Shown one piece after another: positions 44,180 through 54,826 of a DNA stretch of 64,000 nt. The DNA is from Halorussus litoreus. GTDB taxonomy: Archaea; Halobacteriota; Halobacteria; Halobacteriales; Haladaptataceae. Positions within the stretch are counted from its first letter, which is position 1, and each line of letters starts with the position of its first letter. A model generated the notes under the pieces. That model was not told the DNA's origin and did no database searches. It saw nothing but the letters and a program-made list of their open reading frames with translations. A program made the position numbers and the translations under genes. The stretch is taken from positions 96,181 to 160,180 of the forward strand of contig NZ_KZ859503.1 in NCBI RefSeq assembly GCF_003382685.1, written 5' to 3'.

Positions 44180-47100
44180 TCACTCCCCCACGGCGTCCTC
44201 GACGATTGCGATCTCGTCGTCGGTCAGCCCGTACAGTTCGTAGACGATCTCGTCGATGAGGTCGTCGGTGCGCTCGATCTTCGCGTCGAGTTCTTCGGCG
44301 CGTTCTTTCGTCTCGACGTAGCTCTCCAGCCCGCCCGCCACGTCTGCGACGGTGGGCAGCGTGAGCTTCTCCAGTCGGTCCACCAGCGAGTTCGTCTTGG
44401 TGGCGTTGTCCCGGAACCCCGCGAAGCCGCCGGCCTCCGCGACCGCGACGGGGACGAACGCCTCCACGAGGTCGGCCTCGGTCTCGGAGAGGTCGGTGAT
44501 CCGGAGCGCGGGCAGGAACTCCGTCTCGGTGTAGCCGTACTGGTCGAGGTCGTGGCCGCTTCCGCGGGCTTCGCCCGCTCCAGTCCGAGACCCTCCCGCT
44601 GGTCGCGTCTCGCTGTCTTCATCATCGGGTTTGTACCGCGCCGTGAGGTGGATGGTGACGGTGGCGGAATCCTCGCGCTCGACGTTCGCGCGCTCGATCT
44701 GGAGTTTGGTCCGCGTCTCGGTGGTCTCGTTGAGGATGGAGTCCGCGCTGTTCGTCGGGGGTTGGCTGAAGCCGATTTCGGTGATGGTGGGGCCTTCCGA
44801 ATAGTTGCCGAGGTGGTCGAGAAGGGAGAGGTTGAGAGTTCGGAGTTCTTTCTCTTTGTCCTGACATTCGACAGCAGACTCACGAAGTGTTTCCAACTTT
44901 TCGCGAGGGATGTTATCTTGCGAGAGTATCGGCAAATCACCGACATATGTTGAGCTATTCATGTAATACCCACCACGCATCATGGAGGCGATATTGTGCA
45001 GGTACATCTCTAAGAGATTTGAATTAAGGACTGCAACGAGGTAGGGGTCATCTTGAGTGAAAAAGAAAACCGTCTTGTTCAAGAAATAACCCTCAGTATC
45101 GAGAGTGAATTTTGTGTTTTTCGATACCTCGGGGAAAATTATCTTGTCCTTCGAAAACTCGGAGTAGTAGTCACAAGGTCGAAGATGATACCACTTTTCA
45201 CCACGCTCGGTCCGCTCTTCTAAAGATTCTCGGTACTGTTCCAGATATGACTGAATGCCGGGGTAGTTCTCAATCTTCACACCCCCATGCAACCACAGAA
45301 GGTATTCATTGTCAAAGTTAATCGAATGGTTCTCAATATTTTGGCCGGAGATGAATTCTTTGATCAATTCTTCAGAACCGCGATCTGAACGAATTATATC
45401 TTCCTTTTCATATTCGTCAATAATCAAAGCTTCATTGAAGCCCGTCATTATACCACGACGAATACCAGTATCGATTATGTCAGAGAGTTTTTCTCCCCTT
45501 GAGTCCATCTTGTTCATGATTTGCGTCTGTTCTGGACTCCCGAAAGTCCAACTTTCACCTTGGAAATGGTCACTCGGAACTAAAGCGGAGTTCGAGTCAA
45601 TAATAGATTGCAAGTCTGAGAAATCCAAATGTGGAATCTTAGCGAACTCCGTTTTACTTTGCTTGACCCCCTTTTTCAGTATAAAGATAGCAGGATAGGT
45701 GGTTGCACCATCAAAGACTGGCAAGTCGCCAAAGTCACAAACAGAATCGATTTGGTGATTGTTTGAAAGGAATTTGCGGAGTCCCTTTCCATAGTCAGCA
45801 GTAACAAATCGATTCGTGACAATGAGACCAAGCATTCCCTGCTGGCGCAGAACTTGAGTTGACTGCTCAAAGAAATACGTGTAGAGATCAGCAGTGCTAT
45901 CGTAGGTTTCGAATTTTGTCTGGAAAAACTTCTTGAATCTGCTGATAGACTCCTGCCGCACATACGGCGGATTCCCGACCACAGCATCGAACCCGGCATC
46001 CGACGATAACTCACCGCTCCCGTCGAAGAACACCTCGGGGAACTCCAGTTCCCAGTGGAAGAACTGCTCGGTCGCCGCCATCGCCTGCGCACTTGTGAAC
46101 CAGTCGGACTCGGCCACCTCGTCCCACGAGTCGTCGCGGAGCGCCCTCGCCATCTGCTCGTCGGCGTCGTCGGGCACGTCGAGGCCGAACTGTCCGGCGG
46201 TGTGGACCGAACACATCTCCAGCAGGTGGCGGAACTGCGGGTCGTCCCGGATCTCGTCGTAGGTGCGCTCCATCTGCTTGATGTCCGCGAGTTCGTCGTT
46301 CTCGATTGCCAGCAGGTCCGCCATCAGGTCCATCACGTGGTCGAGCGCCTCCTGACGGGTCTGCTCCATCCAGTCCGAGAGCGTCGTCTGACCGGACAGG
46401 TCGTCGTCACCGTCGTCGGTCGACAGTATCCGGCTGATGTCCGACCCCACCAGCGAGTTGCCGGTCTTGAGATGGTGGTCGAGGAAGGCCAGCGGCTGGT
46501 CGGCCGCCAGCGTTTCGAGCCACATCGACAGCTTCGACAGTTCGACCGCCATGTCGTTGAGGTCCACGCCGTAGATGCACTCCTTGGCGATCTTGCGCCG
46601 GATCTCCTGCTCGTCGTACGACTGGAGTTCCTGCTCGCGCACCACCGCCATCACGCGCTCGGTGAGATACCCCGTCGCCTTCGTGAGGAAGTGCCCGCTC
46701 CCCATCGCCGGGTCGAGGATCTTCAGCCCCCGAACTCGCTGCCAGAAGCGTGCGAAGTACTCCCGGTCGCTCGGCTCCAGCCCGTCGTCCCGGAGGTCCT
46801 CGTCGATCTCGGCGACCAGCGGGTCGACCGTCTCCTCGACGATGTAGGTCACCACGTAGTCGGGCGTGTAGTACGCGCCGGTCGCCTTGCGCTCGCCCTC
46901 GTCGTTGACGACGTACAGGCTTCCCCCGGGGACCGTTTCGACCGCGTCGGCCACCGACACCTCGGTCGCGGGCTTCCACACCTGCCCGCCGTCCTCGGCG
47001 ACCGCGGCGTACTGCTCGGGCGCGATGCGGAACTCGTGTTCGAGCAGCCCCTCGTAGATGGAGCCGAGGTGGCGCGTGTCGAGGTCGGCGTAGTCGGCGA

Positions 47101-48331
47101 GCACGAACTCGCCCTCGTCGGTCTCGGTGGTCGAGAGCCGGTAGATGACCTCCGCGATGTACCGGTCAGAGACGCTGTTCTCGGTGAGGAACCCGTGCTC
47201 GTCGGCATCGAACAGCCCGCCGTTGTACGCCGTGACCCCGAGCGCCGCGTTGCCCTCGTCGATCAGCCCGAACAGGTCCCGCAGTCGCTGCCAGATGGAC
47301 GTGGAGAACTCGCTGTACGCCTCGTCGAACGTCTCGCCGTCGTCTCTCGTCCGGAGGATGTCGAGTCGCTTCTGGTCGAGGCTGAAGTTGTCCCGGTACT
47401 CGTCCTTCGCGTCCGGGTCGTCGGGGTTGATGAGTTGGCGCGACTCGGCGTACAGGATGAACATCAGGCGGTACAGCAAGACGAGCGACTGCTCTTTGAG
47501 TTCGTCGAGCGCCTCCTCGTCGTCGGGGTCGATGTCGAGGTCGTTCGTCTCGACGAACCCCTTCCCGAGCACTCGAAGCGCGGTGAAGACGTTGTCCTGC
47601 AGGTCCTCGCCGAGTTCCTTGGCCGCGGTCTCGCTCTCGGTCCACACCGTGTCGAGGAAGCTGGTTCCGGCCACGCTCCGGAACGCCTGGGGCCGGAAGA
47701 ACAGGTAGAAGTACTTGAAATCCTCGACGTTGCCGGTTTCGAGCAGTTCCGGCAGGTCGACCTCGTAGAACGTCTGGGTCTCGTAGTCCTTGGTCCCGTA
47801 CAGTCGCCACTTCTTCCCATCGGTCAGGATGCCCCACTGGACCGACTCGGGCGTTCGTTCGAGGTAGAACTTCACCTGATGGGACGCGTCGCGGTACTGT
47901 CGCTCCTCGCTGAACCGCTCGGTGAAGCTCGACCCCCACTGCTTGGCCTCCAGCACCGCGGACGCTCGCTTGAACAGTACCTCGGCGTCGCCCTCCATCC
48001 CCTGCATCTCGGCCTCCCGGCGGGCGTCCGCGGACTCGAACAGGAGCCGGTCGACGTACCCGCCGCCGTCGGGAAGCGTCGCTTCCGGCCGCGCGCCGTA
48101 CCCCAGTACGTCCAGCACCGGGTCGATCCACGCGTCTATCAGGGCGTCCTCGTTCTGGCCCGCCGCCAGTCCGCTCTCCTTCTCGTACAGCGACTGCAGT
48201 TGCTCGAACACCGCTTCGACGCCCTCGGCCGACTCCCACTCGTCGAGTTCGTCGATCCGCTCCTTGAGATAATGGTCGGTGAAGAGATTGGAGTTCCGGT
48301 ATGGTTTCCGGGACAGCGTCGATTGACTCAT
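44180..48331 (-). CDS. Type IIG restriction-modification enzyme (N6-adenine methylase with nuclease domain)
   Basis: 1383 aa from ATG 48331 (alternatives at 48349 and 48364; the frame open to 49291 is not used because it would cover GGGP synthase). N-terminal PD-(D/E)xK-like nuclease with D94 and E128-x-K130 (VLEAKQW); helical connector; methylase motif I DPAMGSGHF near 539 and motif IV NPPYVRQ near 787; then a target-recognition region and a helical C-terminus. Residues ~790-1167 are encoded by clearly AT-rich DNA (44830-45960) between GC-rich flanks. PglX-like methylase of a defence system is the alternative, but no other BREX gene is nearby. Confidence 0.85.
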   Translation of the reverse strand: MSQSTLSRKPYRNSNLFTDHYLKERIDELDEWESAEGVEAVFEQLQSLYEKESGLAAGQNEDALIDAWIDPVLDVLGYGARPEATLPDGGGYVDRLLFESADARREAEMQGMEGDAEVLFKRASAVLEAKQWGSSFTERFSEERQYRDASHQVKFYLERTPESVQWGILTDGKKWRLYGTKDYETQTFYEVDLPELLETGNVEDFKYFYLFFRPQAFRSVAGTSFLDTVWTESETAAKELGEDLQDNVFTALRVLGKGFVETNDLDIDPDDEEALDELKEQSLVLLYRLMFILYAESRQLINPDDPDAKDEYRDNFSLDQKRLDILRTRDDGETFDEAYSEFSTSIWQRLRDLFGLIDEGNAALGVTAYNGGLFDADEHGFLTENSVSDRYIAEVIYRLSTTETDEGEFVLADYADLDTRHLGSIYEGLLEHEFRIAPEQYAAVAEDGGQVWKPATEVSVADAVETVPGGSLYVVNDEGERKATGAYYTPDYVVTYIVEETVDPLVAEIDEDLRDDGLEPSDREYFARFWQRVRGLKILDPAMGSGHFLTKATGYLTERVMAVVREQELQSYDEQEIRRKIAKECIYGVDLNDMAVELSKLSMWLETLAADQPLAFLDHHLKTGNSLVGSDISRILSTDDGDDDLSGQTTLSDWMEQTRQEALDHVMDLMADLLAIENDELADIKQMERTYDEIRDDPQFRHLLEMCSVHTAGQFGLDVPDDADEQMARALRDDSWDEVAESDWFTSAQAMAATEQFFHWELEFPEVFFDGSGELSSDAGFDAVVGNPPYVRQESISRFKKFFQTKFETYDSTADLYTYFFEQSTQVLRQQGMLGLIVTNRFVTADYGKGLRKFLSNNHQIDSVCDFGDLPVFDGATTYPAIFILKKGVKQSKTEFAKIPHLDFSDLQSIIDSNSALVPSDHFQGESWTFGSPEQTQIMNKMDSRGEKLSDIIDTGIRRGIMTGFNEALIIDEYEKEDIIRSDRGSEELIKEFISGQNIENHSINFDNEYLLWLHGGVKIENYPGIQSYLEQYRESLEERTERGEKWYHLRPCDYYSEFSKDKIIFPEVSKNTKFTLDTEGYFLNKTVFFFTQDDPYLVAVLNSNLLEMYLHNIASMMRGGYYMNSSTYVGDLPILSQDNIPREKLETLRESAVECQDKEKELRTLNLSLLDHLGNYSEGPTITEIGFSQPPTNSADSILNETTETRTKLQIERANVEREDSATVTIHLTARYKPDDEDSETRPAGGSRTGAGEARGSGHDLDQYGYTETEFLPALRITDLSETEADLVEAFVPVAVAEAGGFAGFRDNATKTNSLVDRLEKLTLPTVADVAGGLESYVETKERAEELDAKIERTDDLIDEIVYELYGLTDDEIAIVEDAVGE

Positions 48332-48450
48332 CTGAATATTCGGTGTCATGGACACCATCGACATGAAACTACTGCATATCCGTCCGGACAGGCCCGACGA
48401 GAGTGACTGGTGGGTCCGTTGTTCCCCGCGTAGCTCCCCGATTCGAAGAC

Positions 48451-49384: not shown

Positions 49385-50320
49385 ATGGTCGTGATATTAA
49401 TGGGGAACGTTCAGGGACACGAGTTCGACTTGCTCGGCGACGAGATACGGTCGCGGGGGAGCGAGGTTACGATCGTCGATCTCGACGAGTGGCCGAGCGA
49501 GAAGCCGGTGGCCCAGAACGTCGACGAGAAGTCCGTCCGGATCGGCTCCGAGACCATCCCGATGGCGGACGTGGAGGGCGTGTTCGCTAGGCCCAACACC
49601 CTGTTCATCCCGGCGGTCGAGGACCGACTCCACGGCAGTCTGAGCGACGCCGATAACCCGTACGCCGCGCTGACCCAGATACGGGAGTACCGCGGCCTGT
49701 TCGAGAGTGTCCTCCAGTCGCTGGAGTACCACGGGGCGACCGTGATACCGGCGGTCGACGCGCTCGTCTGGGAGGAGATGAACCCCTACGGCTGCGACCT
49801 GTTCGACTCGATGGGCATCGACGTGCCCGAGACGCTCGCGACGAACGACTCGGCGGCCGCGAAGCAGTTCCTCGAATCCCACGGTAAAGTCGTGTACAAA
49901 CCGGTCGCCGGGGTCGGCGGCGCGCACGTCATGACCGACGACGAGACCGAGGAACTCGAGAACCTGACCACGCCGGTGCTGTTCCAGGAGTTCCTCCCCG
50001 GCGACGACGTTCGCGCGTACGTGCTGGACGGCGAGTTCCTCGGTGCCTTCCAGTACAGCTACGACGACGAGTCGTTCTCGTTCAAGTGGACCGACAGCGA
50101 GATCGCCGCCGAAGCGGTCGAACTGCCGGCGTCGGCGAAGCAGGACGTACTCCGCGCCGTCGAGGCGACGCCCGCGGACTACGCCACCGCGGACCTGCGA
50201 CTCGGGGACGACGGCTCGTACTCGCTCATCGAGGTCAACGCCGGCGGCCGGTTCATGCTGTCGGACTCGAGCGGGATAACGAACGTCGCCGACGCGCTCG
50301 TCACCCACCTCCTCGACTAA
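49385..50320 (+). CDS. RimK-like ATP-grasp ligase, candidate peptide-modifying enzyme
   Basis: 311 aa. N-terminal Rossmann-like lobe (VILMGNVQGHEFDLLGDEI), ATP-grasp lysine loop VVYKPVAGVGGAHVM at 169-183, adenine region LFQEFLPGDDVRAYVLDG at 199-216 with R210, and metal ligands in SLIEVNAGGRF (E283, N285). This matches RimK/MvdD-type ligases that form amide or ester bonds on peptides, glutathione or ribosomal proteins. A PqqD-fused membrane protease begins four bases after the stop, which favours a ribosomal-peptide maturation role. Lysine-biosynthesis LysX or coenzyme gamma-F420 ligase are alternatives, but their partner genes are absent. Confidence 0.8.
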   Translation: MVVILMGNVQGHEFDLLGDEIRSRGSEVTIVDLDEWPSEKPVAQNVDEKSVRIGSETIPMADVEGVFARPNTLFIPAVEDRLHGSLSDADNPYAALTQIREYRGLFESVLQSLEYHGATVIPAVDALVWEEMNPYGCDLFDSMGIDVPETLATNDSAAAKQFLESHGKVVYKPVAGVGGAHVMTDDETEELENLTTPVLFQEFLPGDDVRAYVLDGEFLGAFQYSYDDESFSFKWTDSEIAAEAVELPASAKQDVLRAVEATPADYATADLRLGDDGSYSLIEVNAGGRFMLSDSSGITNVADALVTHLLD

Positions 50321-50324
50321 CCCG

Positions 50325-51284
50325 ATGACGGAGCACGTCGTCGTCGACGACGCCCGATACGGGTTCACGTGGTACCGCGTGGACGGCCAGTACTTCCTCG
50401 AATCCGAGGACGGCTATCGGCGGGTGAACGACTCGGTCGTCGACCTGCTGAACAAACTCGCGCGGGGAACGCTGACCGTCGAAGAGCTACGAGCGCAGGC
50501 GAACGGCGGCCCTGCGGTCGTCGAGGGGTCGGGGACGAACCCGGAGGAGGTGCTCTCGCTCGTCGAGACCTACCTCGAACGGGGCATCCTCCGAGAGGAC
50601 GAACCGGTCGTCCGCGTCACGCCGCCCGACGACGTGAGACTGTGGCCTCGCGTGGCGGTCTTCCTCCTCGTCCTCTCGGCGTTCGGAGCCGTGGTCGCAC
50701 CGATCGCGTCGAGCGTGTCGCCTGCGCTGCTCTCGCGGCTGTCCGTCGGTCAGATCGCGTCGATAGCGGTGCTGTCGGCCGGCTTCGTCGCGATCCACGA
50801 GTACGGCCACTACGCGGTCAGCGCCCGCCACTTCGATCCCTCGGTTCGGCTCGACGTCGTGAACGGCGTCGTCCCGGCGGTCGTCACGGACACCACCGGA
50901 TCGTGGACGCTGCCCCGCAACCAGCGCATCTGGATCAATCTCGCCGGGCCGCTGTTGGAACTCGGCGCGGCCGTTCCGTTGGTTGCCCTCCACTACGTCT
51001 TTCCGAACCACCTCGTCGTCCAACTCCTGCTCCTCGCCGTGTTCGGGCACGTGGTGTTCGCGTTGAACCCGTTGATACACGGCGACGGCTTCTGGATCCT
51101 GTGTGACTACTTCGGTCTGCGGGACGTGCGCCAGCGCGGATTCGAGGACCTGCGAGCGCTCCGGCCCTCCTGGACGGCAGCGTACGTGGTGGTGTCGTAC
51201 GGCCTCGGAGCGGTTCTCGTGGTCTGGATGACCGTCACGTTGGCCGCGCTCCTCGGACTGGTCGAGTTTCACGTCCCGGTCTGA
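50325..51284 (+). CDS. PqqD-like domain fused to membrane M50-type metalloprotease
   Basis: 319 aa. Residues ~12-92 resemble PqqD/RRE peptide-binding domains: YFLESEDGYRRVNDSVVDLL, the turn ARGTLTVEELRAQ, then a helix EEVLSLVETYLERGILRED. Membrane segments follow, with the zinc motif HEYGH at 158-162, NLAGPLLEL, and NPLIHGDGFWILCDYFGL at 248-265, where D254 is placed as the third ligand. This resembles YydH-type RiPP proteases rather than sterol-type S2P, as there is no PDZ domain. It should bind and cleave a peptide in or at the membrane. Co-transcribed with the ATP-grasp gene. Confidence 0.75.
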   Translation: MTEHVVVDDARYGFTWYRVDGQYFLESEDGYRRVNDSVVDLLNKLARGTLTVEELRAQANGGPAVVEGSGTNPEEVLSLVETYLERGILREDEPVVRVTPPDDVRLWPRVAVFLLVLSAFGAVVAPIASSVSPALLSRLSVGQIASIAVLSAGFVAIHEYGHYAVSARHFDPSVRLDVVNGVVPAVVTDTTGSWTLPRNQRIWINLAGPLLELGAAVPLVALHYVFPNHLVVQLLLLAVFGHVVFALNPLIHGDGFWILCDYFGLRDVRQRGFEDLRALRPSWTAAYVVVSYGLGAVLVVWMTVTLAALLGLVEFHVPV

Positions 51285-51359: not shown

Positions 51360-51373
51360 CCGAAAAAGGGTGT
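51360..51373 (-). terminator. Possible T-rich terminator after the 34-aa peptide gene
   Basis: Reading leftward, CACCCTTTTTCGGG follows the peptide stop by about 50 nt. Archaeal termination uses T-rich tracts, so this is a plausible end for the leftward transcript. Confidence 0.35.
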
Positions 51374-51421
51374 TTTATCGCCGTCGTGCAGTGGGCAGAT
51401 CGGTGCCTGCGTCGGAACGCT

Positions 51422-51526
51422 TTACAGCATCTCGACGGAGATGCACGAGGGGAGTGCGGTACTTTCTCGCTCGGTCACTTGGCTATCTTCGAGTTCGCCG
51501 ATCAGGTGCTTGCTATCGTCGTTCAT
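51422..51526 (-). CDS. 34-aa peptide, candidate RiPP precursor
   Basis: ATG 51526 with GGAG five bases upstream; an in-frame ATG at 51541 would add MQWST. The N-terminal half is acidic and helical (NDDSKHLIGELEDSQ), the C-terminal part TERESTALPSCISVEML has acidic, hydroxyl and one cysteine side chains of the kind cross-linked by ATP-grasp enzymes. It is convergent with the ATP-grasp/PqqD-protease pair, 137 bp away, and has its own AT-rich promoter. No similarity recognised; identity as a precursor is inference. Confidence 0.45.
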   Translation of the reverse strand: MNDDSKHLIGELEDSQVTERESTALPSCISVEML

Positions 51527-51555
51527 GGTACTCCATTGCATCCGTGGAACCGGAA

Positions 51556-51567
51556 CCTAATTAATTC
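51556..51567 (-). promoter_or_regulatory. AT-rich promoter of the 34-aa peptide gene
   Basis: On the minus strand the box reads GAATTAATTAGG, about 30 nt upstream of the peptide ATG. The surrounding 51540-51620 is by far the most AT-rich intergenic DNA in this part of the window, with a second box CCTATAAAACC at 51605-51615. Confidence 0.5.
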
Positions 51568-51626
51568 TTTGTTTAAGTTCTATTAAACTAATTGAAGTGA
51601 TTTTGGTTTTATAGGATTACAGTCCA

Positions 51627-54714: not shown

Positions 54715-54826
54715 CGAACGACCGAGAACTCACCACCACGAACGATCCAGAACTCACCACCACGAACGATCCAGAACTCACCACCACGAACGATCCAGAA
54801 CTCACCACCACGAACGACCGAGTGGC
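54715..54826 (+). repeat. 24-bp tandem repeat beyond lrp
   Basis: Copies 54739-54762, 54763-54786 and 54787-54810 of CGAACGATCCAGAACTCACC plus ACCA are identical; the flanking first and last copies have GACCGAG in place of GATCCAG. In the leftward frame the repeat reads as VRGGEFWI, but no gene is supported. Confidence 0.9.

Follow-up and report, generated by a model that had tools for sequence, protein, structure and literature searches.

A short gene missed beside an ATP-grasp ligase and an M50 protease with a predicted RRE in Halorussus litoreus is probably the precursor gene of a graspetide-like RiPP cassette

The window analysed here is a 64-kb stretch (64,000 nucleotides) of Halorussus litoreus DNA, and all positions refer to it. 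On the plus strand, a PsnB-like ATP-grasp ligase gene of graspetide synthetase type (49385 to 50320) is followed after only four bases by a gene for an M50, site-2-type intramembrane metalloprotease (50325 to 51284). Converging on the latter from the minus strand, with 137 bp between the two stop codons, is an ORF of 34 codons plus stop at 51422 to 51526 (ATG at 51526, TAA at 51422 to 51424). The preliminary description had singled out this ORF as a missed short gene tied to the ATP-grasp/protease pair; it is present as described, and homologues were found in frame at 27 other loci. The 34-aa product, MNDDSKHLIGELEDSQVTERESTALPSCISVEML, is divided into a leader region (residues 1 to 22, MNDDSKHLIGELEDSQVTERES; 51461 to 51526) that is kept in homologues, and a predicted core (residues 23 to 34, TALPSCISVEML; 51425 to 51460) in which T23, S27, and an acidic residue at position 32 are conserved; the boundary between leader and core is a putative one. 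An alternative in-frame ATG upstream, at 51541, would yield 39 aa, but the closest homologue (locus L025) begins where the ATG at 51526 lies, and the shorter product is thus favored.

On the sequence evidence, the 34-codon ORF is a real gene. A profile of the relatives' peptides that left out the window peptide was scanned over the 1,188 stop-to-stop frames of the window, and it picked this frame at E 8.6e-9, the runner-up frame being at 2.2. After L025 was also left out, the frame still came top (E 7.1e-5; next frame, 0.89), and with L025, L104, and L026 all removed it was not recovered among the 1,188 frames. The antisense frame at 51386 to 51586 (plus strand) was dismissed as a by-product of the sense frame, eight of 12 leader differences falling on sense third positions. 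Neither the peptide nor its homologues matched any Pfam or NCBIfam family.

The region upstream of the gene is among the very lowest in GC content of the whole window (0.33-0.34 in 100-bp windows starting at 51521 to 51561, versus 0.658 overall), and it includes a TATA-like element, TTAATTA, at 51558 to 51564 on the minus strand, i.e., -38 to -32 from the ATG. Upstream GC is at or below the locus mean in all 28 homologous loci, and TATA-like words are concentrated at -36 to -31, occurring there in 15 of the 28 against 1.8 expected from shuffles; the AT-rich promoter reported previously therefore recurs across the family. With the usual archaeal TATA spacing, transcription would begin about 8-10 nt ahead of the ATG, and a TATA-like element at -36 to -31 would thus imply near-leaderless transcripts. 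The GGAG proposed as a ribosome-binding site does lie 4 nt before the ATG (51531 to 51534, minus strand), but motifs like it precede the start in only about five of 28 homologues; because of this rarity and the near-leaderless transcripts implied, its function is doubtful, the motif is probably incidental, and it fails as supporting evidence for the gene. The T-tract claimed after the stop did not hold up: the first minus-strand run of five Ts (51363 to 51367) is about 55 nt downstream, where it is a weak candidate for a 3' region shared by the convergent genes, and no terminator was called on the minus strand, the one terminator-like site being a plus-strand one within the ORF. A scan of the region for bacterial-type promoters found no site, and Rfam gave no match in the window.

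Homologous precursors were recovered at 27 further haloarchaeal loci, 28 with the window. The family was collected by an M50 search across the order, followed by reading the flanks for short ORFs; a locus search with a single M50 sequence found no related loci, and it was the M50 alignment that succeeded. A short ORF was found at every strong M50 locus having an ATP-grasp gene. The family pattern is H-[FYLV]-[IV]-E-x-L and, further on, E-x-R-x-[NSQ]-[TAP], after which the sequences differ completely. The precursor gene may lie 3' of the M50 gene in convergent orientation, ahead of the ATP-grasp gene in either orientation, or in the gap separating the two enzyme genes, and the likeness among precursors is therefore not due to position. 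M50 matches in other members of the phylum (L106-L109) and in Symbiothrix (L052) had neither an ATP-grasp gene nor a precursor. Clustering of neighboring ORFs gave no dedicated exporter or other common gene beyond the ATP-grasp and M50 genes for window-type loci. An HFX_2341_N/DUF7776 gene, either a regulator or mere synteny, lies 3' of the M50 gene in nine Natrialbaceae-type loci only (L034, L036, L037, L039, and L099-L103).

The precursor gene was shown to pair one-to-one with the ATP-grasp gene in searches of 18 Halorussus genomes. An ATP-grasp alignment search yielded 16 genes in 13 loci at E<1e-115, three loci having two, and a precursor was present in 13/13. With the precursor profile, all matches at E<1e-10 were the 10 M50 loci, and three weaker matches (E 1.8e-4, 7.3e-4, and 0.13) each adjoined an ATP-grasp gene whose product is 55-75% identical to that of L027. 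The ten strong loci belonged to the training set of the profile; the real test is provided by the three new ones, which were found before their adjoining ATP-grasp genes were seen. Three ATP-grasp/precursor pairs have no M50 gene nearby.

Several loci have unusual arrangements. In L031, L033, and L035 (Halorussus), two distinct ATP-grasp genes in tandem accompany a single precursor, and the M50 gene points the other way; microviridin clusters can also have two ligases. In two Halorussus genomes (L114, 2005-3100; L115, 1934-3050), the precursor and ATP-grasp genes are inserted on the opposite strand within an A-type ATPase operon, where they separate the subunit B gene from the subunit D gene, and L113, which has no M50 gene, has a TnpB-like ORF alongside. 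Another, diverged cassette (C12) is present in the genome of the window, and it too has a convergent peptide, MSKHYIEALDESDEIDLEERTNALYKTGPNGDIFV.

Leader and core appear to have evolved in different ways. Between the window peptide and that of L025, the leader has dN 0.12 and dS 0.78 (dN/dS about 0.15) and the core has dN 1.07 and dS 0.36 (dN/dS about 3, from few sites); Fisher's test gives the contrast marginal significance (p 0.03-0.10, again with few sites), and it is in the direction expected for a RiPP precursor. The N-terminal leader and distinct C-terminal part suggested earlier are thus both recognizable, and the comparison then proposed, of whether relatives retaining the enzyme pair conserve one half and vary the other, gave a conserved leader and a variable core. 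As a short gene with these two parts, lying beside a modifying enzyme in several lineages, the ORF classes from its sequence as a RiPP precursor gene. The window core reads T-x3-S-C-x3-E. Its group (the window, L025, L104, and L026) keeps the leader type together with the Thr, a pair of residues drawn from Ser, Thr, and Cys, and a single acidic residue close to the C-terminus, and T23, S27, and E/D32 are all maintained within it. In the L027-L030 precursors, acidic residues are missing from the part that follows the leader, so that a canonical side-chain ester is impossible inside their cores as drawn. L027 and L113 have different mid-regions but end in an identical TPITWFGG, against otherwise variable cores.

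The top NCBIfam model for the ATP-grasp protein, which is predicted to crosslink the precursor, is TIGR04187 (ATP-grasp ribosomal peptide maturase), at E 8.6e-20 and below its cut-off; the protein falls under the curated cut-offs of every graspetide model, and it also scores with the MptN and RimK models (E 2.3e-16 and 1.3e-13). By sequence, its closest solved relative is PsnB (7drm; E 3.4e-26, 27% identity), followed by CdnC and MdnB. Using its predicted structure (pLDDT 88), Foldseek placed all PsnB entries first (E 1e-24), then MdnC, AMdnB, CdnC, and PruB, above RimK and LysX. The catalytic positions E283, N285, D270, and R210 are invariant in 22 sequences. Sequence and structural model together place the enzyme in the macrocyclase lineage, related to the plesiocin synthetase PsnB.

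The M50 protein (predicted structure, pLDDT 92) has HExxH at residues 158-162 and NPxxxGDG at 248-255, both kept, apart from listed positions, in 19 homologues, and in fold comparison its residues 139-312 match RseP, SpoIVFB, and the Methanocaldococcus protease MjS2P (Z 11.1, 9.9, and 8.4, respectively). With HExxH and NPxxGD-type motifs and a predicted membrane-embedded fold, it classes as a site-2 protease. Residues of about 10-92 resemble the RREs of lasso, sactipeptide, and PqqD systems by fold only (Z 4-5.7), and this N-terminal domain gave no Pfam PqqD match; the model predicts an RRE-like, leader-binding fold. Against the daptide protease model NF041824 the protein scored E 1.1e-13 and 51 bits, the cut-off being 300, and matches to LiaK and YydH were weak; no daptide gene partners were seen in the neighborhood within the window.

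A relationship to plesiocin is also suggested by the precursors. Those of Natrialbaceae type (12 loci) have cores ending in TTxxxxGE or TTxxxxGEE, that of L103 being TTLALGEEG, and their profile, run against the PDB, ranked PsnA2(14-38) first of 177,635. The E-value (0.26) is not significant alone but gains weight from the enzyme, which points to PsnB independently. The alignment sets FIEDLGKVTGGKGGPYTTLAIGEE against FVEDLEERSNAttlgvTTLAVGEE, leader on leader and core on core; phmmer with one Natrialbaceae-type precursor found nothing in the PDB, and only the profile matched. The leader motif is LIGEL in the window and HFVEDL or HFIEEL in relatives, which align to FIEDL of PsnA2; linking the leaders of the window group to those of the Natrialbaceae group needs intermediates.

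We consider it likely that the ORF encodes the precursor in a haloarchaeal cassette for a graspetide-like RiPP, the other members being the ATP-grasp synthetase and the RRE-fused M50 protease. The predicted macrocyclase lineage of the ATP-grasp enzyme and its being encoded with a precursor qualify the system as graspetide-like, with the cut-offs of the NCBIfam maturase models unreached. The gene's own AT-rich promoter would give a near-leaderless transcript encoding the peptide, whose leader (KHLIGELED..ER) would dock on the ATP-grasp enzyme; with ATP, this enzyme would activate E32, the acidic residue of the core. Joining of E32 to the hydroxyl of T23 or S27 would then give one ring with the loss of 18 Da, i.e., a single Thr/Ser-Glu ring is predicted for the window core. 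Subsequently, the leader may be bound by the predicted RRE domain of the membrane protease, whose site-2 protease domain would cut at or near the ERES-T boundary, so that the cyclic core is freed at the membrane. One guess, drawn from known graspetides, is that the product acts as an inhibitor of a serine protease. The weak points of this ring mechanism are the L027-L030 cores with no acidic residues and the three pairs with no M50 gene. More tentatively, and with considerable doubt, the cassettes could represent a haloarchaea-specific branch of plesiocin-type macrocyclases whose maturation relies on a membrane protease, an RRE fused to a site-2 protease, to recognize the leader, part of the branch having changed its chemistry, e.g., to a ring on the C-terminal carboxylate.

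A reaction at that carboxylate is also the core of the main rival explanation, which retains the peptide as RiPP precursor or scaffold but has the ATP-grasp enzyme activate its C-terminal carboxylate; either an amino acid would be added, as in RimK-, MptN-, or pheganomycin-type reactions, or a lactone or thiolactone formed with a core Ser, Thr, or Cys, and the M50 protease would free the product. Cutting of C-terminal residues by TglG/TmoG is known from pearlin pathways (PMC10885120). PsnB and other macrocyclases outrank RimK and LysX by sequence and fold, even though the MptN and RimK models also score; the plesiocin-type TTxxxxGE(E) core of Natrialbaceae-type precursors, and the E/D that the window group keeps though its surroundings change, likewise stand against this chemistry, whereas the L027-L030 cores and the fixed TPITWFGG of L027 and L113 fit it. 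On balance, we judge it unlikely.

It is less probable still that the peptide is an unmodified small protein that serves the ATP-grasp/protease pair as a regulator, chaperone-like partner, or inhibitor rather than as a substrate. Its being short, acidic, and presumably transcribed separately, and encoded on either strand and either side of the enzymes, would suit such a role, but a conserved N-terminal half followed by a fast-evolving C-terminal half is the pattern of a RiPP precursor and not of a regulator, and pairing with a macrocyclase-type ligase is likewise that of RiPP precursors. That a mere 34 codons within a convergent intergenic gap are a chance ORF is already contradicted by the in-frame homologues at 27 other loci and by the bias of leader changes to third positions, and this explanation can be given almost no weight.

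The graspetide-like cassette differs from its known counterparts in several respects. Its ATP-grasp enzyme is nearest to PsnB by sequence and fold, its family leader motif F/L-[IV]-E-[DE]-L may correspond to FIEDL of PsnA2, and its Natrialbaceae-type relatives retain TTxxxxGE(E), as in plesiocin (PsnA-PsnB, group 2); unlike plesiocin, the host is haloarchaeal, the 34-aa precursor has one short core rather than several repeats, and the window core lacks the group 2 motif TTxxxxEE. Group 2 graspetides co-occur with an NHLM-type peptidase transporter, according to the text of PMC13097080, in contrast to the M50 protease with its predicted RRE here. Microviridin-type systems (MdnA-MdnB/MdnC) share the leader-guided ATP-grasp ligase, MdnB and MdnC being next in the structure search, but have a leader with Phhx(1,2)h and GG motifs (as set out in the text of PMC8939145). 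The window peptide has no PFFARFL, no Pro before the core, thus no Phhx(1,2)h proline motif, and no GG cleavage motif, and the window has no MdnC/MdnB pair, although some Halorussus loci have two ATP-grasps. Daptide, epipeptide, and pearlin clusters also contain an intramembrane M50 protease (DapP-like NF041824, EpeP/YydH, and TglG), whereas that of the window is below the NF041824 cut-off, has the N-terminal RRE-like domain, and is partnered by a macrocyclase-type ATP-grasp with no daptide or rSAM enzymes.

To our knowledge, archaeal peptide natural products of known structure are almost only lanthipeptides. The three-gene cassette, present across several haloarchaeal families, would if true be a second class, in which the protease itself carries a leader-binding domain and the precursor is too small to be picked up by gene callers; haloarchaeal annotations are overlooking short conserved genes such as this one. 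A single leader family whose cores differ widely, from the plesiocin motif to no acidic residues, would also be a test set for the limits of ATP-grasp macrocyclization. The archaeal peptide study PMC12144867 treats lanthipeptides, with Haloferax volcanii as host; these are likewise ribosomal, with Halorussus a main genus, but rely on haloarchaeal LanM, which is absent from the window cassette, and on another precursor and another chemistry. In their text, the graspetide surveys PMC8939145 and PMC13097080 cover bacterial groups and one Thermoprotea group; the latter, group 36 in PMC13097080, comprises archaeal graspetide-type clusters but, as described there, is set apart by another archaeal class and another accompanying gene. 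Our literature search, which covered the text of PMC13097080 and PMC8939145, found no account coupling graspetides with haloarchaea, although the supplementary tables of the two may list some. Relative to the text of these sources, the graspetide-type enzyme is known, the precursor family and host group are new, and the predicted RRE-protease is unusual.

Other features were noted in passing. An Eco57I/TaqI-type restriction-modification protein (type IIG-like) is encoded at 44180 to 48400, with a low-GC block at about 45000 to 45600 in its target-recognition part. At 54715 to 54819, a 24-bp unit is tandemly repeated in 4.4 copies (96% match) that read as GGEFWIVR repeats, and similar repeats lie beside the C12 cassette (L002, 1278-1505). 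Finally, L125 (62-2466, genome G108) encodes an ATP-grasp protein strongly matching TIGR04187/MvdC (E 1.7e-72) directly 3' of a subtilase that carries 18-bp repeats (DKHPII) at its C-terminus and may be a protease containing its own core repeats; the locus would be a second kind of graspetide-like one.
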